64,000 bases of DNA from Granulicella paludicola (GTDB taxonomy: Bacteria > Acidobacteriota > Terriglobia > Terriglobales > Acidobacteriaceae). The position numbers and the translations under genes were made by a program. The notes under the pieces were generated by a model. That model had not been told where the DNA came from, searched no databases, and was given only the letters and a program-made list of their open reading frames with translations. Shown piece after piece: positions 7,891 through 20,526 of the stretch (within the stretch, counting starts at the first letter, position 1; every line of letters starts with the position of its first letter). The stretch lies in assembly GCF_025685545.1 (NCBI RefSeq), contig NZ_JAGSYC010000025.1, forward strand, positions 372,001-436,000, read 5' to 3'.

Positions 7891-8739
7891 CTAAGCGCTC
7901 GCGACCTTCGGAATCAGAGCCTTCAATAGCTGCGTGAACTGCGCCTCCACGCGTTTGCCGATCTCCATCACCTCTTCGTGATGGATCACGCGATCGAGCA
8001 CACCGGCGGCCATGTTTGTGACCAGGGAGATGCCGAGCACCTCGATGCCCATGTGGCGGGCGATGATGACCTCGTGCACGGTGCTCATGCCGACAAGGTC
8101 CGCGCCTAGCGTGCGGAAGGCGCGAATCTCGGCAGGTGTTTCGTAGCTGGGCCCCAGTACAGCGAGATAGACGCCCTCGGGTAGAGGAATCTGGAGCGCT
8201 GCAGCTTCCTGTAGCGCGAGCTTGCGCAGGCGCGGCGAGTAGGCCGTGGTCATGTCGAAGAAACGAGCGCCGCTGTTAGGCTGTGTGCCGAAACGAGGCT
8301 CGTTCGGGCCGACAGCCGCGTTGATGCCGGTGAGGTTGATATGGTCGCTGATGCCGACCAGCGTGCCTTCACCATAGCTGGTATTAATGCCGCCTGCCGC
8401 GTTGGTCACGATCAGTTTTGAGCAGCCAAGCAGGCCGAGCACGCGCGTGGGAAACGTGACCTCGGCCATCGAATAACCTTCGTAGGCATGAACGCGTCCC
8501 TGCATTACGGCGACGCTAACGCCAGCGATGGTGCCCAGCACGAGTTTGCCGCTGTGGCCTTCCACGGTAGAGAGCGGCCAGCCGGGAATCGAGGCATAGT
8601 CGATCACTGTTGCATTCTCAACCTGCGTGGCGAAGTTGCCGAGGCCTGAGCCAAGAATGATGCCAAGCGTAGGAGCAACGGCGTGGAGAGAACGAATGTG
8701 GTCGGCGGCGGCGAGAACGCGAGTGTAGAGGTCGGACAT
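7891..8739 (-). CDS. punA: Purine nucleoside phosphorylase (trimeric PNP type)
   Basis: A 282-residue cytosolic enzyme that splits inosine or guanosine with phosphate to a free base and ribose-1-phosphate. Recognised by LGSGLGNF (phosphate loop), TVEGHSGKLV, MQGRVHAYEGYSM, the base-site segment VTNAAGGIN, GPSYETPAEIR and VGMSTVHEV with its terminal helix. Length and motifs match the low-molecular-mass, inosine/guanosine-specific family (PunA/XapA), not the hexameric DeoD family. With udk, nupC, deoA and cdd nearby it completes a salvage set for imported nucleosides. Confidence 0.93.
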   Translation of the reverse strand: MSDLYTRVLAAADHIRSLHAVAPTLGIILGSGLGNFATQVENATVIDYASIPGWPLSTVEGHSGKLVLGTIAGVSVAVMQGRVHAYEGYSMAEVTFPTRVLGLLGCSKLIVTNAAGGINTSYGEGTLVGISDHINLTGINAAVGPNEPRFGTQPNSGARFFDMTTAYSPRLRKLALQEAAALQIPLPEGVYLAVLGPSYETPAEIRAFRTLGADLVGMSTVHEVIIARHMGIEVLGISLVTNMAAGVLDRVIHHEEVMEIGKRVEAQFTQLLKALIPKVASA

Positions 8740-8787
8740 AGCTTTTCATTCTAGACCGCCTTGCGCATCGCCTCATGACTTACGCGG

Positions 8788-10149
8788 TCAGTAGTCGATC
8801 CCTTTCCAGTAGTTGGGCGTGTCGACGTATTCATAGCGCTGCGGGTTGGAGTTGACGATGGTCTGGGCGGTTGTGTTCCAGGCGGTGACATGCCCGCCTG
8901 TTTCTGTATCCAGCAGGACAGACTTGTCGAGAATGTAGTTGGAGAAGGCCTGACTCTGGCGGTCCATCACGTCGTTGTGTTGCTCGAAAGAAGCACGCTG
9001 CTCGTCCTCTTGCTGATGCGTGGCGGCTATGCGTGCGTCTACGTCCCGGCCTATCTGGTGGATTGCTTCGATGACGGGGCCGGCCAGTGCACCTGCTTGA
9101 GCATTCACAACGGCCTGATTGACCTGAAAGCTGCCAAGCATAGCTCGCAGTGTGGCGCGTTCGCGGCTTGCTACTTCGGGTGGAGCGAAGGCGAGGTTGG
9201 CAAGGTTCATGAAGCTTCCACTGCCATCCATTTGCGACTGGCAGAAGGAGCCTTCGAACTGCAGGGATTGGCCGTTGCTGGAGCTTGTGCCTGAGAGGAT
9301 GGCGCAGCGTGCGCCGGACGAGCGAACAGGTTGCTGCTGCGCGATCTGGAGGGGTGTGACCGCAGGACTGCCATTGCGCAGGGCCTGATTGTTGAGCTCG
9401 ACCAATGTGCGCCCGAGATCGGCGCCATAGGGCGCGACCAGGCTCTTTGCGTAAATGGTGTTGCGACCGGCCGCCGAGCGACCAAAGGCCATCGCCTGCC
9501 CCGTGCGCGGATCGTTCGAGTTGTGCGCAAGGTATGGGAAGCCCAGGGCGACAACTTCGCCGTGCGGCCCCTGCGCCAGAATGGTGCCTCCACCGCTGCC
9601 TTGAGCGACACGCCAGCCTTCGGCCAGCATCATGGAAGCGGAGTTGTCCTGAAGGCGATAGGGGCGAAGTTGGGCCACCGGGCCGGAGGCAGCTTCGGCT
9701 GAGTGGCCTCCTGTTGCGGACGAGGACTTGCTTGCTGGCTTCCAGACAGCGAAGAGCGACTGCAGCATCGGATTGATCGATTTGCCGAAGCGCGCAGATT
9801 CGTCGGTGAGCAACGCGGCCTCCACATGGCCGGACGCATTCGAAGTCAGCAGCATGCCAGCGACTTTACCCATTCCCGGGTTGTGCGGGGTGAGGGTGAA
9901 GAAGACGGCGTCTGAATCGGTGCCTCGTACCCGAAAGACTCGTCCGACCTGCGGACGCTCGCCGTACCTCTGGTGCAGGCTTTTGAGGATGACGCCCATC
10001 GCGGCGGGAGGCGTGTTCGCGCCGTCGACTGTGCCGTAGACGATGGTTCCTCCCTGCGGGCCGGGCATGTTGCGCAGAGGAGTCTGCGCGAAGGAGGCGG
10101 TGAGCGCGGCGAAGGTCAGAAGGAAGGCAGCGAGTCGCAGGGAACGCAT
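8788..10149 (-). CDS. Exported protein of unknown function
   Basis: A 453-residue protein with a signal peptide (MRSLRLAAFLLTFAALTASFA) and no recognised domain. The middle is low in Cys and rich in Ala, Gly and Ser. Near residues 365-400 there is a charged, probably coiled-coil stretch (QEDEQRASFEQHNDVMDRQ). The C-terminus is aromatic (YEYVDTPNYWKGIDY). It starts with ATG and lies between purine nucleoside phosphorylase and nupC on the same strand, but gaps of about 50 and 115 bases give no firm operon link. It is probably periplasmic; nothing more can be supported. Confidence 0.75.
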   Translation of the reverse strand: MRSLRLAAFLLTFAALTASFAQTPLRNMPGPQGGTIVYGTVDGANTPPAAMGVILKSLHQRYGERPQVGRVFRVRGTDSDAVFFTLTPHNPGMGKVAGMLLTSNASGHVEAALLTDESARFGKSINPMLQSLFAVWKPASKSSSATGGHSAEAASGPVAQLRPYRLQDNSASMMLAEGWRVAQGSGGGTILAQGPHGEVVALGFPYLAHNSNDPRTGQAMAFGRSAAGRNTIYAKSLVAPYGADLGRTLVELNNQALRNGSPAVTPLQIAQQQPVRSSGARCAILSGTSSSNGQSLQFEGSFCQSQMDGSGSFMNLANLAFAPPEVASRERATLRAMLGSFQVNQAVVNAQAGALAGPVIEAIHQIGRDVDARIAATHQQEDEQRASFEQHNDVMDRQSQAFSNYILDKSVLLDTETGGHVTAWNTTAQTIVNSNPQRYEYVDTPNYWKGIDY

Positions 10150-10264
10150 GGTGGTCCTTTCAAGAAGGACTAGACCGTAAGACTCTGGGAGAGGCGGTCC
10201 GTGTCCTTCTATCTGGATATGCGTAAACGGGCGGGAAAGTGACTCACGTCCTCTAACTATTCGA

Positions 10265-11500
10265 TTATTTGATCAACATGCTGACGATGCTTGCGGACAT
10301 CAGGTTCGCCATTGTTCCAGCGAGCATGGCTCGCAGGCCAAGATTCGCCAGATCATTGCGGCGGTTGGGGACGAGAGCTCCAATGCCGCCGATCTGCATA
10401 CCGATCGAACCCACGTTGGCAAAGCCGCAGAGCGCAAAAGTGGCGATGGAGAAGCTGCGCGGGGAGAGCGTTGCCTTGATGTTGCCGAGTTCCTTGAACG
10501 CGAGAAACTCGTTGATTATGGTGCGGGTTCCAAGCAGGTTGCCGATGGTTCGGGCCTCGTGCCAAGGGATGCCGATGAGCCACGCGACGGGCGCTCCTAC
10601 GACGCCGAGGACGTTGTTGAGCGAGTGCGGGAACGGGATTCCGTGTATCCACAGCTTGTTCGAGATGTCGAGCATGATGGCGTTGAACAAGCCGACGAGT
10701 GCGACGAAGGCTAGCAGCATGATCGCGACGTTGAATGCGAGTTGGCCGCCGTCGATAGTGCCGCGGGCGATGGCACCGATGAAGTTTTCGTTCGCGTGCT
10801 CCTCGCTCGGAGGCATCGTGACGGTGCCTGCGGTGGCGGGAACCTCGGTTTCAGGGACGAGCATCTTGGCGACGAGGATGGTTCCTGGCGCGGTCATGAT
10901 GACGGCGGAGAGCAGGTCCTTGGCGTTGATGCCGAAGAGGATGTAAGCGGCCATGATGCCGCCGGAGACGTGCGCCATGCCGGAGGTCATGATGGTCATC
11001 AGCTCGGAGCGGGTCGCTCCGGCGAGGAATGGACGGATCGTTAGCGGCGCTTCGGTCTGGCCCATGAAGATGCTCGCCGCGACGTTGGTCGATTCAGCAC
11101 CGGAGGTTCCCATCGTCCACTGCATGATCCAGGCGACGACCTTGATGATCTGCTGCATGAGGCCGATGTGATACAGGATCGCGAAGAAGGCGGAGACGAA
11201 GATGATGGTTGGCAGAACGGAGAAGGCGAAGACCGAGAGCGGGTTCGACGGGACGCCGAGGTAGCCGAAGACGAGGCCGGAACCGTCTGCTGCGTGGCCG
11301 AGAAGACCGGTGATGAAGTCAGAGGTGTGCTTCAGGATCGTCTGTCCGTAGGTCCACTTGATCACGGCGAAGGCGAAGAGGACCTGTAGCGCGAGACCCC
11401 AAACGACGGTCTTCCATCGGATGGCGCGCCGGTTGGTGGAGAAGGCGTAGGCGAGGCCGAGAAACGTCAGAAGACCGAGAAGTCCGGTGAATCGTGCCAA
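10265..11500 (-). CDS. nupC: Concentrative nucleoside transporter
   Basis: A 411-residue inner-membrane protein of the CNT family, which imports nucleosides with H+ or Na+. Multiple hydrophobic helices are evident. Family motifs include FMGQTEAPLTIRPF in the middle and the C-terminal CGFANVGSIGMQIGGIGAL followed by an NLGLRAMLAG segment. The start appears to be TTG at 11500, nine bases after a GGAG. Its placement among udk, purine nucleoside phosphorylase, deoA and cdd supports a role in feeding salvage. It is divergent from the cold-shock gene, with 220 bp between. Confidence 0.93.
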   Translation of the reverse strand: MARFTGLLGLLTFLGLAYAFSTNRRAIRWKTVVWGLALQVLFAFAVIKWTYGQTILKHTSDFITGLLGHAADGSGLVFGYLGVPSNPLSVFAFSVLPTIIFVSAFFAILYHIGLMQQIIKVVAWIMQWTMGTSGAESTNVAASIFMGQTEAPLTIRPFLAGATRSELMTIMTSGMAHVSGGIMAAYILFGINAKDLLSAVIMTAPGTILVAKMLVPETEVPATAGTVTMPPSEEHANENFIGAIARGTIDGGQLAFNVAIMLLAFVALVGLFNAIMLDISNKLWIHGIPFPHSLNNVLGVVGAPVAWLIGIPWHEARTIGNLLGTRTIINEFLAFKELGNIKATLSPRSFSIATFALCGFANVGSIGMQIGGIGALVPNRRNDLANLGLRAMLAGTMANLMSASIVSMLIK

Positions 11501-11589
11501 AGAATGAATCTCCGATGCGCTGGGAATGATGTGGAACTGAGTGTAACGGTTCGTACGGTGAAACGCGCAAAGATTCCTGACCGGTCCGC

Positions 11590-11617
11590 TTGCGTTGTAG
11601 GCATGGAGTGTTACACT
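11590..11617 (+). promoter_or_regulatory. Possible sigma-70-type promoter of the cold-shock gene
   Basis: TTGCGT (11590-11595) and TACACT (11612-11617) are separated by 16 bases, giving an untranslated leader of about 100 bases before the Csp start. Long leaders are usual for cold-shock genes. This is a match by eye only. Confidence 0.4.
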
Positions 11618-11721
11618 GTCGTTGGTCGTCGAATACTTTTGGTCTTCTTGCTTGTTCCAGCATTACTGCTATACACGCAAAACACCAACAACGCGTTCAG
11701 CGGTACATTGCTTAAAGGAAC

Positions 11722-11931
11722 ATGAATACAATGGAACAGGGAACAGTAAAATGGTTTAACGATGCTAAGGGTTTCGGATTTGTCAGCCGCGAGAGCGGAG
11801 ATGACGTTTTCGTTCACCACAGCGCGATCCAGGCGAACGGCTTCCGCACCCTCCAGGAGGGTCAGCGCGTTCAGTTCAACGTGGTCAAGGGACCCAAGGG
11901 CTGGCAGGCTGAGAACGTTCAGGCTATCTAA
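11722..11931 (+). CDS. Cold-shock protein, CspA family
   Basis: A single cold-shock (OB-fold) domain of 69 residues, or 66 if the second ATG at 11731 is used. Both RNA-binding motifs are present: RNP1 in DAKGFGFV and RNP2 in DVFVHHSAI. These small proteins bind single-stranded RNA or DNA and act as RNA chaperones in the cytoplasm. The sequence AAAGGA lies only two bases before the first ATG and 11 before the second, so the start is undecided. A strong terminator follows. Confidence 0.95.
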
Positions 11932-11949
11932 CTCGATCTTCGAGTAAGA

Positions 11950-11983
11950 CAAAAGGGCGATTCCTTCGGGAGTCGCCCTTTTG
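11950..11983 (+). terminator. Intrinsic terminator of the cold-shock gene
   Basis: A 15-bp stem with one G-T wobble (caaaagggcga... / ...tcgcccttttg) is closed by a cTTCGg tetraloop and ends in TTTTG, 19 bases after the stop codon. Confidence 0.88.
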
Positions 11984-12309
11984 CTTTGTCTGGAGGTCTC
12001 CCCCTCCCCCCGTACTTAGGTCTCAAAGTATTCAAATCAGATGGGTTAGGTCTGGACTTTGTGTGTCTGAGTCCAAATCCCGCTTGAGGCTTGTGAATAG
12101 ACGAAGGGAAACTTTTCTAACCTCTTATTTAATTGTAGCGGGTGGGACCTGCGAACATACAATTGTTTTTGGGGGGTGAAGGTGTTTTGTTTTGTTAGGT
12201 TTGAGTGGAAGAGAGGGTCGTGAGGGGTTGACAGTGATTTCTGGGGGGCATTCTGCAAACCCATATCCCAAAGGCGGGACATGGGGCACCCGGAGTCCTG
12301 CGGATTCTG
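11984..12309. other. Gene-free 326-base stretch with repeat-like pieces
   Basis: No credible gene. A pyrimidine-rich start is followed by acttaggtctcaaagtattc (about 12014-12033) and a second taggtct (12047-12053), a motif seen again near 63371. A lower-GC middle follows. At about 12255-12297 there is a palindromic piece (aaaccca... tggggcaccc) resembling the repeat inside the DNA glycosylase gene. The 78-codon minus-strand frame here has no coding signs. Confidence 0.5.
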
Positions 12310-13692
12310 TTAGGGCAGGGTGGCGGCGGTGACGATCTCGCGGATAAGTAGCTGCGGGGTGGGAGGGGTGTCGGTTAGGGTGACTGTGGCCTGGAGCATG
12401 GCGTAGGGTTCGTCGAGGAGGGCGGGATCTTCGGTGAAGAGGGTGAAGATGGGCTGGCCTGCGGTGAGGCGGTCGCCTAGTTTGGCGTGGGATTCGATGC
12501 CGACGTGGGCGCTGACCGGGCCGCCGGGAACGGCTCGACCGGCTCCGAGCCGCTGAACGGCCCAGCCGACTTCCTTGCAGTCCATGGAGGAAAGATAGCC
12601 GTTGCGGGAGGCGGTGAGGACGCGCTTGGCTGCTGGCTTATGGAAGAGGGCGGGATTGGCGAAGACGGAGGTATCGCCGTGGTGGGCTGCGACGATCTGA
12701 AGCCAGGACTTGTAGGCACCGCCGGAGCGGATGAGTTCGGCGGCCAGCAGAGCACCGGCCTCGGGTGTGGCGGACTTGCCAGCGAGGTAGAGCATCCAGC
12801 CGCTGAGGGTGTTGGAGAGGGTGATTAGGTCCGCGGACATGCGCTGGTGTTCGGGGGAGATGGGCTTGTTCTGGAGGATGTCGACGCACTCCCAGACCTC
12901 GACCCAGTTACCCGAGAAGCGACCGAGAGGTTCATCCATAGTCGTGAGCAGAGCTGCCGTGCGGGTGCCGCTGCGCTCGCCGGTGGCGACCATGAGTTCG
13001 GCGAGGAACTTGGATTTTTCGTAGGTCGGCATGAAGGCGCCGGAGCCGACTTTGACGTCTAGGACGAGGCCGTTAAGGTCTTCGGCGAGCTTCTTGCTCA
13101 TGATGCTGGCGCAGATAAGGAAGGGTGATTCGACGGTGCCGGTGTGGTCGCGCATGGCGTAGAGGATGCGATCGGCGGGGACGAGGCGCGGTGTCTGCCC
13201 TACGAGCACCGCGTGACAGTCGCGCAGGACCTCCATCATTTGCGGGAGGGTGAGCTGGGTGTCGAAGCCGGGGATGGTTTCGAGCTTGTCTAAAGTTCCA
13301 CCCGTATGTCCCAGGCTCCTCCCGCTGATCATTGGGACGGAGATGCTGGGGGTGTTTTCGAGGCCCGCGGCGGCGAGAGTGGGCGCGATGAGGAGCGAGG
13401 TCTTGTCGCCGACGCCGCCGGTGGAGTGTTTGTCGACGGAGAAGGTGTTGAGGGGCTTCGTATCGAAGACCTCGCCGGAGAAGCGCATGGCGGTGGTGAG
13501 GTCGGCGGTCTCGCGGAGGGAGAGTCCGCGCTGGAAGACGGCCATGAGGAAGGCGCCGAGCTGGGCTTCGGTGAGGGTGGCGGCCTTTGGATCAAGGCTC
13601 AGGGCGGTGACGGCTTGGACGAAGGCGTTGATGTCGGCGGTGGAGAGCTCGAGGCCGTCGCGTTTTCGGAGGATGAGGTCGATTGGGTGCAT
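12310..13692 (-). CDS. deoA: Thymidine phosphorylase
   Basis: A 460-residue cytosolic enzyme that converts thymidine and phosphate to thymine and deoxyribose-1-phosphate. Hallmarks are the N-terminal DLILRKRDGLELS, the phosphate site KHSTGGVGDKTSL, SGRSLGHTGGTLDKLE and a LDVKVGSGAFM segment; the C-terminal domain ends with the usual AKLGDRLTAGQPIF region. The start is set at ATG 13692 (MHPIDLIL) by family length. The reading frame stays open to 13848, but that part is translated repeat DNA. No ribosome site is visible; tandem GTGAG repeats begin 15 bases upstream of the start. cdd lies upstream on the same strand. Confidence 0.92.
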   Translation of the reverse strand: MHPIDLILRKRDGLELSTADINAFVQAVTALSLDPKAATLTEAQLGAFLMAVFQRGLSLRETADLTTAMRFSGEVFDTKPLNTFSVDKHSTGGVGDKTSLLIAPTLAAAGLENTPSISVPMISGRSLGHTGGTLDKLETIPGFDTQLTLPQMMEVLRDCHAVLVGQTPRLVPADRILYAMRDHTGTVESPFLICASIMSKKLAEDLNGLVLDVKVGSGAFMPTYEKSKFLAELMVATGERSGTRTAALLTTMDEPLGRFSGNWVEVWECVDILQNKPISPEHQRMSADLITLSNTLSGWMLYLAGKSATPEAGALLAAELIRSGGAYKSWLQIVAAHHGDTSVFANPALFHKPAAKRVLTASRNGYLSSMDCKEVGWAVQRLGAGRAVPGGPVSAHVGIESHAKLGDRLTAGQPIFTLFTEDPALLDEPYAMLQATVTLTDTPPTPQLLIREIVTAATLP

Positions 13693-13706
13693 AGGGGGAA
13701 GAGCTA

Positions 13707-13846
13707 GTGAGGAGTGAGAAGTGAGGAGTGAGAAGTAAAGGCAACGGCAAAAGCAAAAGCAGCGGCAAGCGCAGAAGCGGATTCCCTGCGGAGAATGACA
13801 AACAAGAGGGCAAAAGCAGAAGCCGATTCCTTCGGGAATGACTGAC
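13707..13846 (+). repeat. Composite repeat between deoA and cdd (GTGAG tandem plus two REP-A copies)
   Basis: 13707-13736 is a tandem of GTGAGGA/GTGAGAA units. It is followed by an A-rich ggcaaaa spacer and two copies of the palindromic REP-A element (GATTCCCTNCGGGAATGAC core) at 13775-13802 and 13820-13846; the first copy has an extra base in the right arm. The block fills nearly the whole gap. Confidence 0.8.
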
Positions 13847-13859
13847 AACGTGGCGATGG

Positions 13860-14300
13860 TCAGGCGGGGGTGATGAATTCGCCGCGGAAGGCGTGGGGGA
13901 TGAGGGCGCCGAGTGTGGTGGTTATGGGGCCGGATTCGTCGGGGTAGAGGATGAGGGCGTTGTCGGGGGCGAACTCGGCGAGGGTTTGGCGGCAGGCGCC
14001 ACAGGGCATGGAGGCGGCGTGGTTGAGGTTGGCGACGGCGACGGCGCGAAGACGGATGCCGGGGCCGAACTGGCTGACGGCGCGGGCGATGGCAGCCTGT
14101 TCGGCGCAGCTAGTGAGGCGGTAGGAGGCGTTTTCGACGTTGCAGCCGGTGACGATGGAGCCGTCAGTGAGGAGCAGGGCGGCGCCGACGCGAAAGTGGC
14201 TGTAGGGGGAATAGGAGTTGGCAGCGGCTTCGGCGGCCAGATTGAGGAGCTTTTGACGGTCGGAGAGAGAGAGGGCGCCGGGTTCGGAGAAGGAGGTCAT
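13860..14300 (-). CDS. cdd: Cytidine deaminase
   Basis: A 146-residue cytosolic zinc enzyme that deaminates cytidine and deoxycytidine to uridine and deoxyuridine. The substrate and zinc motifs are NVENASYRLTSCAEQAAI (Cys ligand and catalytic Glu) and PCGACRQTLAEF (two Cys ligands), so this is the three-Cys, tetrameric type. Together with deoA (167 bases downstream), purine nucleoside phosphorylase, udk and nupC it completes a nucleoside salvage neighbourhood. No strong ribosome site precedes ATG 14300. Confidence 0.94.
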   Translation of the reverse strand: MTSFSEPGALSLSDRQKLLNLAAEAAANSYSPYSHFRVGAALLLTDGSIVTGCNVENASYRLTSCAEQAAIARAVSQFGPGIRLRAVAVANLNHAASMPCGACRQTLAEFAPDNALILYPDESGPITTTLGALIPHAFRGEFITPA

Positions 14301-14436
14301 GGATTGTTTAGCCTAGCGGCTTGCCGGTTGACTGGCAAGCCGCACAGGTTCGCAAGGTGAGACCGTGCCGGATGGTGAATGTGGCGGGGCCCGAATGCAA
14401 GGATGGCGGCAGAGGAAGGACAGCAGTTAAATAGGT

Positions 14437-14459
14437 AAGCCCGGCAATCGGCCGGGCTT
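14437..14459 (-). terminator. GC hairpin downstream of microprotein gene 1
   Basis: aagcccggc / gccgggctt form a perfect 9-bp stem with a five-base loop, about 145 bases past the stop codon of the 38-residue ORF on the minus strand. The following minus-strand bases (acctatttaac) are only moderately T-rich. The same stem recurs at 15001, and a related one at 15085. Confidence 0.55.
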
Positions 14460-14602
14460 GAAGTCGTTTCCTACCTGATTTGCCCTTAGGCAATGACGGC
14501 TGCAATTCTTTTCAGCAAAGGTGAGTGTTTAGAAGAACAATTGCTTTTTGAGTCTCTTTGTTCTAACTCAGGCTGAAGGCAGTGTCAGGTAGAAGGGCAG
14601 TC

Positions 14603-14719
14603 TTAGGCAGCGGACTGAGGATTCGACACAGTGGACGTGCTTGGGCACGAGGGGTGGCAGCAGTGAGATGAGCAGCAGCAGCTGAAACAGCTGAACAGGC
14701 TAAAAAAGCAACAGAACAT
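14603..14719 (-). CDS. Cys/Phe/Ser-rich microprotein 1 (38 residues), unknown family
   Basis: A short gene in an otherwise empty 1.3-kb gap. The peptide begins MFCCFFSLFSCFSCCCSS and continues HCCHPSCPSTS to an AA end: nine Cys, two His, many Ser and Phe, no Lys or Arg. A near-perfect ribosome site (CCGGAGG, five bases before ATG) and a -35/-10 promoter support expression. The partner at 15292 shares 17 of the first 18 residues although 18 of those 54 bases differ, and four Ser codons change between AGC and TCN; this indicates selection on the peptide. Clustered Cys and His would suit metal binding or disulfides, and the Phe-rich start could enter a membrane, but both are guesses. I do not recognise the family. 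Confidence 0.7.
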   Translation of the reverse strand: MFCCFFSLFSCFSCCCSSHCCHPSCPSTSTVSNPQSAA

Positions 14720-14747
14720 AATTACCTCCGGTGGAATTACTATCGTC

Positions 14748-14776
14748 ACCTTAGCCGCGGGTGTGACCCAAGTCAA
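14748..14776 (-). promoter_or_regulatory. Promoter with overlapping dyad, microprotein gene 1
   Basis: On the minus strand, TTGACT (14776-14771), a 17-base spacer and TAAGGT (14753-14748). The -35 box is the left half of TTGACTTGGGTCA, an imperfect inverted repeat (TTGAC...GTCA). The same arrangement stands in front of microprotein gene 2, suggesting one shared regulator. Confidence 0.6.
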
Positions 14777-15000
14777 CCATAAAAGGTGTATTTAGTCATG
14801 CCGAACGAAGATAAAAGCTGAATCAAAGCCAGTTAGGCCAGGCCTAGATGAGATCTTTGGTAACCATCTTTGGTATTGGGAGGTCGCATAGTACCAATGT
14901 TTTCCCGTTATTTCTCGCAATCCAAAGCGGTGGTTTGCGCGTACACGTCGTCCTGTAGGACTTAAGTAATGTTTTGGGAAAGTTCAAGAGCGCGCACAAG

Positions 15001-15026
15001 AAAAAGCCCGGCGAGAGCCGGGCTTT
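15001..15026 (-). terminator. Intrinsic terminator, second in tandem after microprotein gene 2
   Basis: Minus strand: agcccggc / gccgggct stem of 8 bp with a four-base loop, followed by TTTTT. On the plus strand it also has a short GCTTT tail. About 270 bases past the stop codon of the 52-residue ORF. Confidence 0.6.
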
Positions 15027-15084
15027 GCTGAACTTGGGTGGCTAGTAAGAGTGAGCAAATCTGCAAGGTAAGAATTTGGGCAGG

Positions 15085-15107
15085 AAAAAGCCCGGCAAAA
15101 ACCGGGC
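15085..15107 (-). terminator. Intrinsic terminator after microprotein gene 2
   Basis: Minus strand: gcccgg / ccgggc stem with a T-rich loop, followed directly by TTTTT; about 185 bases past the stop codon. It shares the GCCCGG core with the other two hairpins of this gap. Confidence 0.6.
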
Positions 15108-15291
15108 CACAACATGGAACGAAGGTTTTGGTATCGAGTAGGTGTCAGAGAAGCCAATAAGGGGTGCGGGAGGCGCGAATGCATGCGTCTTTCCCTGGGC
15201 GAAGCCAACCCGATATGGGTGGGCTACACATGGGTGCTGCGATTGCTTCGAAGATCAAGCTTTCGCTGCACCCGTAGAAGGCTGCAGGCAA

Positions 15292-15450
15292 CTACTCGGT
15301 GCTGCCGCCCTGTGCGCTGCCACCGGTGCCGGTCGACTGACCGCCGCCGCTGCCGCCATGGCAATCGCCGCCGGAGTGGTGCGAGGAACCGCAGCAGGAG
15401 CTACAGCAGCAGGAGAAGCACGAGAAGAAAGAGAAGAAGCAACAGAACAT
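15292..15450 (-). CDS. Cys/Phe/Ser-rich microprotein 2 (52 residues), unknown family
   Basis: The partner of the 14603 gene on the same strand. It begins MFCCFFSFFSCFSCCCSS, continues CCGSSHHSGGDCHGG and ends in a Gly/Ser/Thr/Gln tail (GGGQSTGTGGSAQGGSTE): nine Cys and three His, with no Lys or Arg. A GGAGG ribosome site lies 12 bases before ATG, longer than usual, and the promoter has the same TTGACT / 17 / TAA layout as gene 1. The N-terminal 18 residues match gene 1 at all but one position (Phe/Leu 8) despite only 67 percent identical bases; the tails differ. It was found by reading short minus-strand frames, and other frames across it show no family features. Function unknown; metal binding is a guess from Cys/His content. 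Confidence 0.7.
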   Translation of the reverse strand: MFCCFFSFFSCFSCCCSSCCGSSHHSGGDCHGGSGGGQSTGTGGSAQGGSTE

Positions 15451-15478
15451 TGTTTTTTTGAACCTCCGAATAAGGAAG

Positions 15479-15507
15479 AAGTTAGCAACCGACTTGACCT
15501 AAGTCAA
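15479..15507 (-). promoter_or_regulatory. Promoter with overlapping dyad, microprotein gene 2
   Basis: On the minus strand, TTGACT (15507-15502), a 17-base spacer and TAACTT (15484-15479). The -35 box overlaps TTGACTTAGGTCAA, a 14-base inverted repeat with one mismatched pair near its centre, likely an operator. Confidence 0.62.
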
Positions 15508-15621
15508 CGAAAATAGGGAGGTTTGCTGTGTTCCCAATATGGCACTTTAGGGGTAGGGTGATCGCGTCAGGGGGCAGTGTGGTGGCGGTGAAAAGGATGC
15601 TTTGAGAGTTTTGTACGGCGA

Positions 15622-18600
15622 ATGGTGACAGAAACGGCATCTGTAGGATGGGAACGTATGTCCAGGGAAGCTGATGTGTCGGATGCGAGCAGGCAGAAAA
15701 AGACAGGCAGGGTGAGGGGTTCGAAGCCCGAGGCTGTGGCGGAGATTGATGCGCTGGGGGTGTTTCACCCAGTGACGGCGCAGTGGTTTCGCGCGGTGTT
15801 CGAGGGGGTGACGGCTCCGCAGCGGGAGGGTTGGCCAGCGATTGCGCGGGGTGAGTCGACGCTGATCCTGGCGCCGACAGGGACGGGCAAGACGCTGACG
15901 GCGTTTCTGTGGTGTCTGGATCGGCTGATGCTGCAAGGGCAGGGAGTAGGGAATAGGGAGCAGGGAGCCGCTGAAGGGGTGCGGGTGTTGTATTTGTCGC
16001 CGCTGAAGGCGCTGGCGGTGGATGTGGAGCGGAATTTGCGGTCTCCGCTGGCGGGGATTGCGAACAGGGCCGAGCGCGAGGGCGTGGCGGTGCAGGTGCC
16101 CACGATTTCGGTGCGGACGGGGGATACGAGTCCGAAGGAGCGCGCGCAGTTCAAGCGGCATCCGGGGGAGATTCTGATTACGACGCCGGAGTCGCTGTAC
16201 CTGCTGCTGACGAGCGATGCGGGGAACGCGCTGCGGTCGGTGGAGACTGTGATTATCGATGAGATCCACGCGCTGGTGCCGACCAAGCGCGGGGCACATA
16301 TGATGCTGAGCCTGGAGCGGCTGGAGGCGCTGGTGGCGGCGAATGGGGGTGGGCCGATTCAGCGGATCGGGCTGAGCGCGACGCAGCGGCCGCTGGAGGA
16401 GGTGGCGCGGTTTCTGGGGGGAGCGGAAAGTAGCGGCACGACGGTTGAGAAGCAGGTTCTTCGCTCCGCTCAGGATGACAATCTACAGACGAATGAATCT
16501 GAGCCGGCGGGGGTGCGGTTTCGGCCCGTGACGATTGTGAATGCCGGGGCACGGAAGGTGCTGGAGCTGAAGGTCGAGGTGCCGGTGGAGGACATGGCGA
16601 AGCTCGGCGACATTGAGGAGTTGCCGAGCGGGGCGGCAAGCCAAGGACCGAAGCGGACGTCGATCTGGCAGAGTATTCATCCGAGGCTGCTGGAGATTAT
16701 TCGAGAGCGGACGTCGACGCTGATCTTTGTGAACGCGCGGCGGGTGGCGGAGAGGCTGGCAGGGGCGATCAATGAGCTGGCGGGGGAGTCGATTGCGCGG
16801 GCGCATCACGGCTCGCTGGCGGCGGCGCAGAGGAGTGAGATTGAGGAGCTGCTGAAGGCGGGCAAGCTGCGGGCGCTGGTGTGTACGTCGTCGCTGGAGC
16901 TGGGCATCGATATGGGAGCGGTGGATCTGGTGATCCAGATCGAGGCTCCGCCGAGTGTGGCGAGCGGGATGCAGCGGATTGGGCGGGCGGGGCACCAGGT
17001 GGGGGCTCCGAGCACGGGTATCATCTTTCCGAAGTATCGGGCGGACCTGATTGCGTGTGCTGCGGTGACGCAGGCGATGCATGAGGGGCATGTGGAGTCG
17101 ACGCGGTTTTTGAGGAACCCGCTGGATGTGCTGGCGCAGCAGATGGTGGCTGTGGTTTCGCAACCGCCGGGGGTGGTCGTGGCTCCGAGCAAGAAGCAGG
17201 TCCTTCGACTGCGGGCTGTGGCCTCCGCTCAGGATGACAATCTCGCGGCGGAAGACGAGGGTGGGATCAGCTATGAGGCGCTGCTGGGGATTGTGCGGAG
17301 CGCCGCGCCGTTTGCGGGGATGAGCGTGACGACGTTCAACGGCGTGCTCGATATGCTGGCGGGGCGGTATCCGAGTGACGAGTTCGCGGAGCTGCGACCG
17401 CGGGTGACGTGGGACCGCGAGAAGAACTGGATCACTCCGCGGCAAGGTGTGAAGCGGATAGCTATTTTGAACGGCGGGACGATTCCGGATCGCGGCACGT
17501 ATGGGGTGTTTTTGAGCGGGGCTACGAAGCCGCTGCGGGTGGGCGAGCTGGACGAGGAGATGGTGTTCGAGGCACGGACGGGCGAGACGTTTGTGCTGGG
17601 GGCTTCGACGTGGCGGATCGACGAGATTACGCAGGACCGCGTGCTGGTGAGCCCTGCTCCGGGTGAGCCGGGAAAGATGCCGTTCTGGCATGGCGACAGG
17701 CCGGGAAGGCCGATCGAGTTCGGGCGGCGTATTGGAGCGCTAGTGCGAGAGCTGCGAGCGATGCCTCGCAACGTGGCGATGACGAAGCTGGTGAGCGATC
17801 ACGATCTGGATGAGAAGGCGGCGGAAAATGTGCTGCGGTATCTGGTCGATCAGGAGCTGGCAACGGAGCAGGTGCCGGACGATCGGACGATTGTGATCGA
17901 GCGAGTGCGCGATGAGCTGGGGGACTGGCGGGTGTGCGTGCTGACACCGCTGGGAAGCCGCGTGCATACGCCGTGGGCGATGGCGGTGTCTGCGAAGCTG
18001 AAGGCCGCGGGGCTTGATGTAGAGACGATGTGGAGCGAGGACGGGTTCGTGCTGCGATTCCCGGAGAGCGACGCGCCGCCCGATGTTGACGTGTTGATGA
18101 TGAGTCCGCTGGAGGCGAGTGAGCTGGTGATGGCGCAGCTTGGCTCGACGGCGCTGTTTGCGGCGAAGTTTCGCGAGGCGTCGTCGCGTGCGCTGTTGCT
18201 GCCGAGGCGCAGGGCGGAGGGACGGACGCCGCTGTGGCAGCAGAGAAAGCGTGCCTACGACCTGCTGAGTGTGGCGAGCCGGTATGCGGAGTTTCCGATG
18301 CTGCTGGAGGCGTACCGCGAGTGCCTGCGCGATGTGTTCGATATGCCGGCGCTGATGGAGGTGCTGCGCGGGATCGAGACGCGACAGACGCGGGTGCATG
18401 TGGTGGATTCGCGCATGCCTTCGCCGTTTGCGGGAGCGCTGCTGTTCAGCTATGTGGCGAACTACATCTATGACGGCGATGCTCCGCTGGCAGAGCGACG
18501 GGCGCAGGCGCTGGCGATCGATCAGGACCAGCTGCGGGAGTTGCTGGGCGATGCCGATCTGCGCGAGTTGCTGGACTCGGCGGCAATCGAGGAGACGGAA

Positions 18601-20526
18601 GAGCAGCTGCAGTGCGTCGTGGAAGGCTACAAGGCCAGGAACATGGACGGCCTGCACGATCTGCTGCTACGGCTGGGCGATATGACGCGGGCGGAGATTG
18701 CTCTGCGGTGTGAGACGCCTGAGGTAGCGGCGACGGTGGACCGGCTGATCAAGGCGAGGCGCGCGCTGGAACTGTTGATTGCAGGCGAGCGGCGGGTGAT
18801 TGCGGTGGAGGATGTGGCTCGAGTGCGGGATGCGCTGGGTGTGCCGCTGCCGCCGGGTCTGCCTGCGGCGTTTCTTGAGGCGGTACCGGATGCGCTGCTG
18901 GATATTGTGCGGCGGTACGCGCGCACGCATGGGCCGTTTACAACGCCGGATGTGGCGACGCGGTATCAGCTTTCGAACGCGACGATTGAGGTGACGCTGC
19001 AGAAGCTGGTGGGGCTGGGACGCGTGGTGGAGGGCGGCTTTCGACCGGGCGGGTTGAATCGCGAATGGATCGACGCCGAGGTGTTGCGCGCGGTTCGCAG
19101 AAAGAGCCTGGCGAAGCTGCGCAAGGAGGTTGAGCCGGTGGCGCAGCGCACGCTGGCGCGGCTGTTTACGCGGTGGCAGGGCGTGGTGCAGCCACGGCGC
19201 GGGCTGGATGCGTTGCTGGATACGATTGAGAATCTGCAGGGCGCTCCGCTGCCTGCGTCTCTGCTGGAGAGCGAGATTCTGCCGGCGCGGATTAGTGGGT
19301 ATCGGTCGTCGGATCTGGACACGCTGATTGCGGCGGGTGAGGTGGTGTGGGTGGGGCTTGATCCGCTGGGGGAGCGGGATGGGCGGATCGGGCTGTATCT
19401 TGCGGAGAAGCTTTCTGGATTGTGGGCTCCGACGAGGGTCGTGCCGGTGCAGAAGCAGGTCATTCGCTCTGCTCAGGATGACAATGCCAAGGGGGATGGC
19501 GCTGCGTTGAGTGAGAAGGAATCGCAGATCGTGGAGTGGCTGCGCGCGCGTGGAGCTTCGTTCTTCCAGGACCTGCATGATGGCGTGGGCGGCGGGTATC
19601 CGGGAGAGACTTTGGAGGCGCTGTGGTCGCTGGTGTGGCGCGGGATGTTGATGAACGACGGCTTGCTGTCGCTGCGGGCGTACTGCGAGCGGCCTGCGAG
19701 CACGGGCAGATCGAAGCCAGCGCGAAGGGTGCATAACCAAATCAACAAGCAGGCGGGTTTCAGGAGCCGGAGAACGACGCCGCCGACGGCGCAGGGGCGA
19801 TGGAGTTTGAATGCAATTGCGTTCGATGATGGGCGCGACGGGACGCGCGCTACGCAGTGGTCTCATGCGATTGCGCAGCAGTTGTTGACGCGATATGGCG
19901 TAGTGTTTCGCGAGACGGCGCATGCGGAGAATCTGCCGGGAGGTTTTTCGGCCGTGTATGACGTGATGAAGGCGCTCGAGGAGAGTGGCAAGGTGCGGCG
20001 TGGGTATTTTGCCGCGGACTTAGGTGCGACGCAGTTTGCGATGCCTGCGGCGGTTGACCTGCTGCGGAGCCTGCGCGTGGCGGGGAGCGAGGATGAAGCT
20101 GAGGTGGTAATGCTGGCGGCGACGGACCCGGCGAATCCGTATGGGGCGCTGCTGCGGTGGCCTGCGGCGCCGGAGGAAGGGAGTTCGCTGACGCGGAGTG
20201 TGGGGGCCCGGGTGGTGCTGGTGAACGGGGCGTTGTCGGCTTACTTGAGGAGAGGCAATCCGGCGATCCAGGTGATGATTCCCGAGGAGGAGCCGGGGTG
20301 CTCGCAGGTGTCGCGCGCACTGGCGGAGTTCTTAGTGGCGATGGTGCGGAAGGATGAGACGAACTCGCGTGCGGGGCTGCTGATTACGACTGTGAATGGG
20401 GTGGCAGTGGCGGAGCATCCGCTGGCGAAGTATCTGCTGGAGGCTGGGTTCTTCGCGGCGCCGATGGGGTTCAATGTGCGGAAGGGTTTGCCGGGGCTGC
20501 CGACGGGCGGTATTGCGAGGGTTTGA
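15622..20526 (+). CDS. lhr: Lhr family ATP-dependent helicase
   Basis: A 1634-residue superfamily 2 helicase of the long Lhr class (core plus a large C-terminal region), a cytosolic 3'-5' helicase family linked to DNA repair. The core has Walker A (APTGTGKTLTAF, about residues 84-95), DEIH (about 213), motif IV (LIFVNARRVAERL), HHGSLA, SSLELGIDMG and motif VI (QRIGRAGHQVG), then winged-helix and Lhr-specific regions. Four short segments are translated repeats, not family sequence: VGNREQG near residue 110 and KQVLRSAQDDN-like peptides near 277, 525 and 1278. They keep the frame and probably lie in surface loops. ATG 15658 is an alternative start. Confidence 0.92.
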   Translation: MVTETASVGWERMSREADVSDASRQKKTGRVRGSKPEAVAEIDALGVFHPVTAQWFRAVFEGVTAPQREGWPAIARGESTLILAPTGTGKTLTAFLWCLDRLMLQGQGVGNREQGAAEGVRVLYLSPLKALAVDVERNLRSPLAGIANRAEREGVAVQVPTISVRTGDTSPKERAQFKRHPGEILITTPESLYLLLTSDAGNALRSVETVIIDEIHALVPTKRGAHMMLSLERLEALVAANGGGPIQRIGLSATQRPLEEVARFLGGAESSGTTVEKQVLRSAQDDNLQTNESEPAGVRFRPVTIVNAGARKVLELKVEVPVEDMAKLGDIEELPSGAASQGPKRTSIWQSIHPRLLEIIRERTSTLIFVNARRVAERLAGAINELAGESIARAHHGSLAAAQRSEIEELLKAGKLRALVCTSSLELGIDMGAVDLVIQIEAPPSVASGMQRIGRAGHQVGAPSTGIIFPKYRADLIACAAVTQAMHEGHVESTRFLRNPLDVLAQQMVAVVSQPPGVVVAPSKKQVLRLRAVASAQDDNLAAEDEGGISYEALLGIVRSAAPFAGMSVTTFNGVLDMLAGRYPSDEFAELRPRVTWDREKNWITPRQGVKRIAILNGGTIPDRGTYGVFLSGATKPLRVGELDEEMVFEARTGETFVLGASTWRIDEITQDRVLVSPAPGEPGKMPFWHGDRPGRPIEFGRRIGALVRELRAMPRNVAMTKLVSDHDLDEKAAENVLRYLVDQELATEQVPDDRTIVIERVRDELGDWRVCVLTPLGSRVHTPWAMAVSAKLKAAGLDVETMWSEDGFVLRFPESDAPPDVDVLMMSPLEASELVMAQLGSTALFAAKFREASSRALLLPRRRAEGRTPLWQQRKRAYDLLSVASRYAEFPMLLEAYRECLRDVFDMPALMEVLRGIETRQTRVHVVDSRMPSPFAGALLFSYVANYIYDGDAPLAERRAQALAIDQDQLRELLGDADLRELLDSAAIEETEEQLQCVVEGYKARNMDGLHDLLLRLGDMTRAEIALRCETPEVAATVDRLIKARRALELLIAGERRVIAVEDVARVRDALGVPLPPGLPAAFLEAVPDALLDIVRRYARTHGPFTTPDVATRYQLSNATIEVTLQKLVGLGRVVEGGFRPGGLNREWIDAEVLRAVRRKSLAKLRKEVEPVAQRTLARLFTRWQGVVQPRRGLDALLDTIENLQGAPLPASLLESEILPARISGYRSSDLDTLIAAGEVVWVGLDPLGERDGRIGLYLAEKLSGLWAPTRVVPVQKQVIRSAQDDNAKGDGAALSEKESQIVEWLRARGASFFQDLHDGVGGGYPGETLEALWSLVWRGMLMNDGLLSLRAYCERPASTGRSKPARRVHNQINKQAGFRSRRTTPPTAQGRWSLNAIAFDDGRDGTRATQWSHAIAQQLLTRYGVVFRETAHAENLPGGFSAVYDVMKALEESGKVRRGYFAADLGATQFAMPAAVDLLRSLRVAGSEDEAEVVMLAATDPANPYGALLRWPAAPEEGSSLTRSVGARVVLVNGALSAYLRRGNPAIQVMIPEEEPGCSQVSRALAEFLVAMVRKDETNSRAGLLITTVNGVAVAEHPLAKYLLEAGFFAAPMGFNVRKGLPGLPTGGIARV
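15937..15967 (+). repeat. G-rich repeat C inside lhr
   Basis: Four runs of GGG in a GGGAGTAGGGAATAGGGAG context, read in frame as QGVGNREQG. Related copies lie at 28893, 43044 and 59399. Confidence 0.75.
16450..16482 (+). repeat. REP-B copy inside lhr (first)
   Basis: A 33-base element with core CTTCGCTCCGCTCAGGATGA, read as KQVLRSAQDDN. It lies between the two helicase lobes. Confidence 0.85.
17194..17241 (+). repeat. REP-B copy inside lhr (second, extended)
   Basis: The same element with 15 extra bases in its middle (reads KQVLRLRAVASAQDDN); the extension is a multiple of three, so the frame is kept. Confidence 0.8.
19453..19485 (+). repeat. REP-B copy inside lhr (third)
   Basis: A 33-base copy read as KQVIRSAQDDN, same strand and frame as the other coding copies. 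Confidence 0.85.

Follow-up and report, generated by a model that had tools for sequence, protein, structure and literature searches.

Two Cys-rich reading frames between cdd and lhr as very probable members of a lineage-restricted microprotein family

The gap between the cytidine deaminase gene cdd and the divergent Lhr helicase gene lhr (14300 to 15622, 1.3 kb) houses two short, similar ORFs. Their resemblance raises the question of whether their peptides are selected products and, if so, what kind of protein they represent. The original prediction had placed two minus-strand ORFs of 38 and 52 codons in this gap, and their coordinates in the window (the whole 64,000-nucleotide stretch that was analysed) were confirmed (Table 1). 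It is nearly certain that the two, which encode P0001 and P0002, belong to a family of stand-alone microprotein genes that is lineage-restricted and has at least seven members. Four members belong to the window genome, G000 (P0001, P0002, P0003, and P0008), and three to another species of the genus, G015 (P0004, P0005, and P0006), all of the latter in the lhr/cdd interval.

Table 1. Features of the cdd–lhr interval and its flanks (window coordinates).
Feature	Position	Strand	Details
cytidine deaminase gene cdd	13860..14300	minus	flanking, conserved neighbour
GC-rich hairpin after gene 1	14437..14459	minus	AAGCCCGGC-CGATT-GCCGGGCTT; identified by eye
microprotein gene 1 (P0001)	14603..14719	minus	38 codons, 38 aa; peptide MFCCFFSLFSCFSCCCSSHCCHPSCPSTSTVSNPQSAA; hydrophobic head MFCCFFSLFSCFSCCC; motif CCHPSC; C-terminus QSAA
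Shine-Dalgarno site of gene 1	14724..14729	minus	GGAGGT
promoter-like element of gene 1	14748..14776	minus	TTGACT-N17-TAAGGT; 8/12 consensus, below scanner cut-off
intrinsic terminator-like hairpin after gene 2	15003..15026	minus	second of two
intrinsic terminator-like hairpin after gene 2	15089..15108	minus	first of two
3' untranslated hairpin of gene 2	15232..15273	minus	same stem in G015 orthologue
microprotein gene 2 (P0002)	15292..15450	minus	52 codons, 52 aa; peptide MFCCFFSFFSCFSCCCSSCCGSSHHSGGDCHGGSGGGQSTGTGGSAQGGSTE; head MFCCFFSFFSCFSCCC; Gly/Ser/His-rich tail; sole member of seven without C(H.|.H)[ST]C
Shine-Dalgarno site of gene 2	15462..15467	minus	GGAGGT; 13 nt between GGAG and ATG, a long spacer
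promoter-like element of gene 2	15479..15507	minus	TTGACT-N17-TAACTT; core CGGTTGCTAACTT identical in G015 orthologue
9-mer upstream of gene 2	15545..15553	minus	CCCCTAAAG; single copy in window
Lhr helicase gene lhr	15622..20526	plus	flanking, divergent, conserved neighbour

Peptide-level selection and gene anatomy

Over the first 18 codons P0001 and P0002 share 17 of 18 residues, but their DNA differs at 18 of 54 bases (5 of these at first, 4 at second, and 9 at third codon positions), and Ser 7, 10, 13, and 17 changed between AGC and TCN codons. The counts claimed at the outset, including the four serine switches, were exact on recount. The same prediction had attributed the pattern to selection on the peptide, beyond chance or DNA duplication, and simulated neutral divergence bore this out, as 18 random base differences (n = 20,000) left at most 12 residues unchanged. 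Permuting the second 18-mer 200,000 times with the start Met fixed gave at most 15 identical residues, so shared composition was ruled out as the cause of the 17/18 identity. The remaining five frames of the two blocks showed 6–9 identical residues of 17. Taken together, the codon pattern, the simulation, the permutation, and the other frames show that selection acts on the peptide read in this frame.

A GGAG was located 6–13 nt upstream of the ATG in all seven members. An in-frame TTG start for gene 1, giving 57 aa, was rejected because the TTG falls within the −35-like element; the ATG has its own Shine-Dalgarno site. The arrangement TTGAC[TC]-N17/18-TAnnnT, its end 23–33 nt before the ATG, was present in every member except P0008, and this promoter-like layout is thus common to six of the seven copies. 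On both strands of the 64-kb window this arrangement occurred twice, exactly at P0001 and P0002; TTGACY alone occurred 29 times. At P0004 an alternative promoter pair scored higher. A 9-of-12 consensus scan detected no promoter on either strand at the window ORFs, so there was no sign of an antisense gene. The 9-mer CCCCTAAAG stood 36–37 nt before the TTGAC in three of the seven members, namely P0002, P0005, and P0003, the last of which is unlinked; its other copies are in L097 near 3441 and L034 near 1394. On sequence grounds it is a candidate regulatory site and suggests that some of the members may share a regulator. An FNR/FixK-type box (consensus TTGA-N6-TCAA), present upstream of gene 2, was rejected because the G015 orthologue lacks it.

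The 3' untranslated regions extended about 150–350 nt to the next hairpin in the six members other than P0008. The terminator scan of the window interval gave 3 sites (two of them overlapping) compared with 1.6 ± 1.4 in shuffles. It did not call the hairpin after gene 1, which has a T-poor tail, and counterparts of the terminator-like hairpins were observed after P0004 and P0005 in G015. The 3' regions of P0002 and P0005 folded better than their shuffles (z of −2.6 and −3.0, respectively), and those of P0001 and P0004 folded little better (−1.2 and −1.4). Two both-sided pair changes, C-G to U-A and A-U to G-C, were read by hand in the P0002/P0005 stem, and this stem-loop (window 15232-15273, minus strand, and L097:3749-3793) could be a separate RNA element. 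As a further observation, very similar GCCCGGC-loop-GCCGGGC hairpins recurred after these small genes, at window 14437-14459, 15003-15026, and 15089-15108 and in L097 near 3930, 4115, 4765, and 6300, and were also seen in the gene-free lhr–cdd gap of another genus genome, G007.

P0001 is followed by cdd, which begins 300 nt downstream with the hairpin between them. P0003 and P0008 are each followed by a convergent gene; they are therefore stand-alone genes and not operon leaders. The neighbours identified by Pfam were lhr, cdd, deoA, a DNA methylase, a LacI regulator, and a rhodanese protein, the Pfam annotation of the window comprising ten proteins within its first 22 kb. No metal-handling gene was seen among these immediate neighbours, and no modification or export gene stood beside the members among the ten profiled window proteins or around P0003 and P0008. 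About 7–14 kb from the window genes lie genes for an ABC transporter and two peptidases, all of generic kinds. Window 7891-14300 (minus strand) is a nucleoside salvage cluster comprising a phosphorylase, a Na+ nucleoside transporter, a pyrimidine nucleoside phosphorylase, and cytidine deaminase. Within it, 8788-10149 (minus strand) is a 453-aa ORF with no Pfam match at E ≤ 1e-6. Plasmid DNA gave no match to window 14400-15620.

Recovery of the members and their distribution

An exact codon pattern for MFCCFF, run over 28 genus genomes, recovered both window genes and P0003, a third G000 copy of 41 aa with a QSAA end. A scan of short ORFs at the cdd loci of 25 genus genomes (at least 4 Cys in the first 30 residues; one locus per genome, a second G013 fragment being excluded) returned P0004, the 39-aa orthologue of gene 1 in G015, along with Arg-rich and other chance-looking ORFs. 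A second filter, applied to longer stretches, asked for a Shine-Dalgarno-like site with at least 3 Cys and at most 2 charged residues in the first 32. In the lhr–cdd interval of G015 it gave P0005 (64 aa), P0006 (32 aa), and P0004, of which P0005 is the orthologue of gene 2; across 15 other genomes it gave a single chance-looking ORF in L104, another in L111, and nothing in the remaining 13. The fourth G000 copy, P0008 (35 aa), was detected at E 3.9e-4 by profile A6, built with P0006. It is the only blind profile find, as profile members match their own profile by construction. A carbon-nitrogen hydrolase (CN_hydrolase) gene is located between two of the G015 microprotein genes on the opposite strand (L097:4821-5825, minus).

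The proposed paralogy of the window genes was upheld by relatives of both at the same place in G015 and by two further paralogues in G000. Internal stops, which had been named as evidence against the genes, were found in none of the seven members. The expectation of a conserved ORF in related genomes held for G015 alone among the 27 other genus genomes searched; the rest gave no members.

With profiles run over 120 relatives and over 398 genomes of the taxonomic family, G000 and G015 were the only genomes to yield members (E ≤ 1e-8), in part because the profiles had been built from them. No convincing member was found in the 396 other family genomes by these profiles, which miss known members: A5, built without P0006 and P0008, failed to list those two, and A7, built without P0002 and P0005, failed to list that pair at E ≤ 0.5. 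In most of the 398 genomes 20 first-look candidates were scored. Because of this number and the misses of A5 and A7, distant members were possibly overlooked. The next-best matches began at E 2.4e-4. Among the best 28 of many (L195-L222), 27 lacked an in-frame start with a Shine-Dalgarno-like site and none was convincing; L215, which has both, was rejected as a 28-codon TTG ORF without a hydrophobic head.

Searches of other kinds gave a similar picture. Queries with P0002, a five-member alignment, and P0005 retrieved no relative from 5.8 billion predicted proteins, in which unpredicted short ORFs may be absent. With P0002, tblastn gave matches in 133 of 200 relatives at E ≤ 10 (best outside G000, 9.6e-4), which were read as composition noise, judged overall and not one by one; the search was insensitive, because the true orthologue P0005 in G015 stayed unlisted. 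A locus-level search found no relative. The FSCFSCCC pattern matched G000 and three others of 300 family genomes, the three being rejected with Cys, Trp, or Arg at the Ser positions. A degenerate MFCC.. pattern gave 20 matches on genome contigs, 17 of them on stretches below 50% G+C and none with a comparable tail, and a similar one gave 6 matches on viral contigs. With two mismatches allowed, a pattern search matched six of the 398 family genomes besides G000 and G015, all in unrelated reading frames. Pfam gave no match for the six members scanned (P0001–P0005 and P0008), PHROGs none at E ≤ 1 for all seven, and NCBIfam no fitting family for all seven, its CobN row (E 0.039, 11 bits against a cut-off of 1619) being noise. 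In the titles and abstract openings surveyed on small Cys-rich bacterial proteins, no published description of the P0001–P0008 family was found.

At the locus itself, lhr turned up next to cdd and deoA on 11 of 16 stretches and was off the stretch on the other five. Of the ten lhr–cdd stretches besides that of G015, seven have a gap of about 0.2–0.4 kb, and three (L101, L103, and L105) carry another gene there, a T2SSE-type ATPase by Pfam in L105 and alike by eye in the others; the interval thus accepts inserted genes. Lhr and P0007 identity places G007 and G015 at about the same distance from the window species, and G007 has neither the window genes nor the third copy (P0003) at the matching places. 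The family is therefore patchy even among close relatives.

Peptide anatomy and candidate functions

The members are 32–64 aa long, and all seven begin with a hydrophobic segment of about 14–16 residues without Lys or Arg. The Kyte-Doolittle mean of the first 16 residues was 1.4–2.0, a value reached by 0–220 of 20,000 shuffles per member, and the best 15-residue mean was 1.57–2.14; in P0008 residue 15 is Asp. Lys and Arg are missing altogether from five of the seven peptides, and P0005 and P0006 contain one each. The motif C(H.|.H)[ST]C was present in six members (as CHPSC, CHHTC, CHPSC, CDHSC with CGHSC, CHSSC, and CPHSC), with an extra Cys directly before it in five of the six. It occurred in 0.4–7% of shuffles, a comparison made with a motif defined post hoc from these same sequences, and the seven members are not independent because P0001/P0004 and P0002/P0005 are orthologue pairs. 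The tails are rich in Ser, Thr, Gly, or Pro, and four members (P0001, P0003, P0004, and P0008) end in QSAA, encoded by varying codons (CAG/CAA, TCC/TCG/TCT, and varied GCN). Among the MFCC-type members the head was more conserved than the tail, and the heads of P0006 and P0008 differ from it. The AlphaFold model of P0001, built from five sequences, showed a helix at residues 3–15 and no secondary structure in the tail; its confidence was low (pLDDT 55.7). The top match of the family profile in the PDB was the ANDCCCDGACSSSPTL stretch of the zinc pump 4umv (E 0.27, not significant), followed by Mdm2 (E 0.68); P0008 alone matched the 4umv stretch at E 1.5, also not significant.

Tentatively, and at somewhat less than an even chance, we read the members as membrane-associated peptides that bind soft metals or thiols. 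The head would lie on or insert in the cytoplasmic membrane as a short helix, the Cys/His tail would bind a soft metal (Cu, Zn, Cd, or Pb class) or make thiol/disulfide links, and the peptides could act in this way as membrane-tethered metal or thiol ligands. Metal or thiol buffering and membrane-peptide roles, as the original prediction suggested, would fit the motif in six of the seven members. A Brucella ovis paper cites earlier work in which the N-terminal domain of E. coli ZntA without CCCDGAC loses Pb binding (PMC10800456). More speculatively, the conserved nonpolar C-terminus (QSAA) could be a protease tag giving quick turnover of the free peptide. The CruR paper describes C-terminal nonpolar residues as a degradation signal (PMC9426467). 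Against the membrane-ligand reading, a head of some 15 residues is short to span the membrane as a helix and lacks a positive charge that would orient it, P0002 lacks the Cys/His motif, and the identified immediate neighbours include no metal-handling gene.

A bolder version, which we regard as unlikely, would make the family a new class of bacterial membrane-tethered metallopeptides. Dispersed, stand-alone genes of a single genome would encode peptides of 35–52 aa, each with an uncharged Phe/Leu/Cys-rich membrane head, a (C)C(H.|.H)[ST]C soft-metal claw, and a shared QSAA end that sends metal-free peptide to a protease. Together they would form a rapidly renewed inner-membrane sink for metals or thiols, and evolution would be fast enough to leave homology visible only between close species.

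Several other readings have to be set beside the membrane-ligand one. Unlikely, in our estimate, is a peptide that is exported or modified after translation (as a signal, a bacteriocin-like peptide, or a RiPP-type precursor), of which the conserved head would be the leader and the variable Cys/Ser/Thr tail the active part. MFCC-type heads are kept better than tails, the Cys/Ser/Thr-rich tails diverge fast within a narrow distribution, and the ABC transporter and peptidases are at hand, though generic; yet no modification enzyme was seen among the ten window proteins (first 22 kb) or the P0003/P0008 neighbours, the members are dispersed and stand alone, the P0006 and P0008 heads are unlike the MFCC heads, and the leader would be uncharged. 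The small size, hydrophobic heads, neighbouring and dispersed intergenic copies, narrow distribution, and long 3' untranslated regions of six members would also suit a type I-like membrane-acting toxin restrained by an antisense or 3'-end RNA. As PMC8309996 describes them, membrane type I toxins have fewer than 60 aa and are hydrophobic, some with functional cysteines, and cationic residues, generally C-terminal, are a common feature. Five of the seven peptides have no Lys or Arg, however, and the promoter scan was empty on both strands, which makes this toxin reading improbable.

Equally improbable is an RNA with a dual or regulatory function, whose 3' untranslated structure would count for as much as the peptide. 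The better-than-shuffled folding after P0002 and P0005 and their shared stem with its paired changes favour it, but this stem was seen in only two sequences, the P0001 and P0004 regions fold weakly, the codon pattern shows selection on the peptide, and no Rfam match was found in the window. We consider very unlikely a Cys-rich leader peptide that would sense Cu or cysteine and control a downstream gene, like CutF/CruR or amino-acid attenuators. The CxxxC spacing is as in CutF (PMC9973294), GC-rich hairpins follow both window ORFs, and gene 1 precedes cdd; the published descriptions, however, place CutF and CruR genes at the head of metal operons (PMC9973294, PMC9426467), and the six members scanned in Pfam gave no DUF2946 match. 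A leader role is unlikely because P0003 and P0008 precede convergent genes, with no downstream target in sight. Non-coding, low-complexity ORFs arising by chance, for which the low-complexity composition and the lack of a protein-database relative could be cited, deserve hardly any credence in view of the codon pattern, the permutation test, the promoter pattern, the orthologues, and the common gene anatomy.

The metal-claw reading, if true, would represent a new and compact way to keep soft metals at a membrane. Small proteins are poorly annotated and fast-evolving ones evade homology search; here a codon-level pattern spotted by eye led to a seven-member family missed in 5.8 billion predicted proteins. 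It provides a defined new set of microprotein genes in which gain and loss between close species are open to study, and synthetic peptides would be directly assayable.

Comparison with known systems

CutF and CruR of the DUF2946 family resemble the members in having a hydrophobic N-terminal segment followed by a Cys motif (CxxxC in CutF, CXXC in CruR), and in the stem-loop or long intergenic region downstream (PMC9973294, PMC9426467). As described in these papers, they differ in heading metal operons and acting on the next gene, whereas the members here stand alone, and they are larger (145 residues in CruR) with Pro-rich or RAPP C-termini. None of the seven members ends in RAPP, and PP near the C-terminus was seen only in P0004 and P0008. 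CutF and CruR belong to DUF2946, and the six members scanned showed no Pfam match.

Type I toxins such as Hok, ZorO, and Ldr are likewise small hydrophobic peptides, some of them duplicated (PMC8309996, PMC3919570), but they usually have one membrane helix, cationic residues, and an antisense RNA, whereas the present peptides are Cys/His-rich with almost no Lys or Arg. Measured against the type I size criterion of fewer than 60 aa, P0005 is longer at 64 aa; a hydrophobic 15-residue stretch is present in all seven members, and the helix at residues 3–15 of P0001 is a low-confidence one.

With the CCCDGAC segment at the N-terminus of ZntA, the likeness is that ANDCCCDGACSSSPTL locally resembles the family core CCHxSCxST (E 0.27, not significant), and the difference is that this segment is a stretch of a large P-type ATPase, whereas the members are no transporters. 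The bacterial metallothioneins SmtA and MymT are short, soluble Cys-rich peptides that are not known to have a hydrophobic head. The members share the shortness and the richness in Cys and are set apart by description through their hydrophobic head; they had no match in Pfam (six of seven scanned) and no convincing one in NCBIfam (all seven). Nor did the members find a counterpart among small proteins of phages or mobile elements, PHROGs giving no match for any of the seven and plasmid DNA none for window 14400-15620. Compared with these systems, the members are, judging from their sequences, best called a new, lineage-restricted small-protein family known from two species of one genus.
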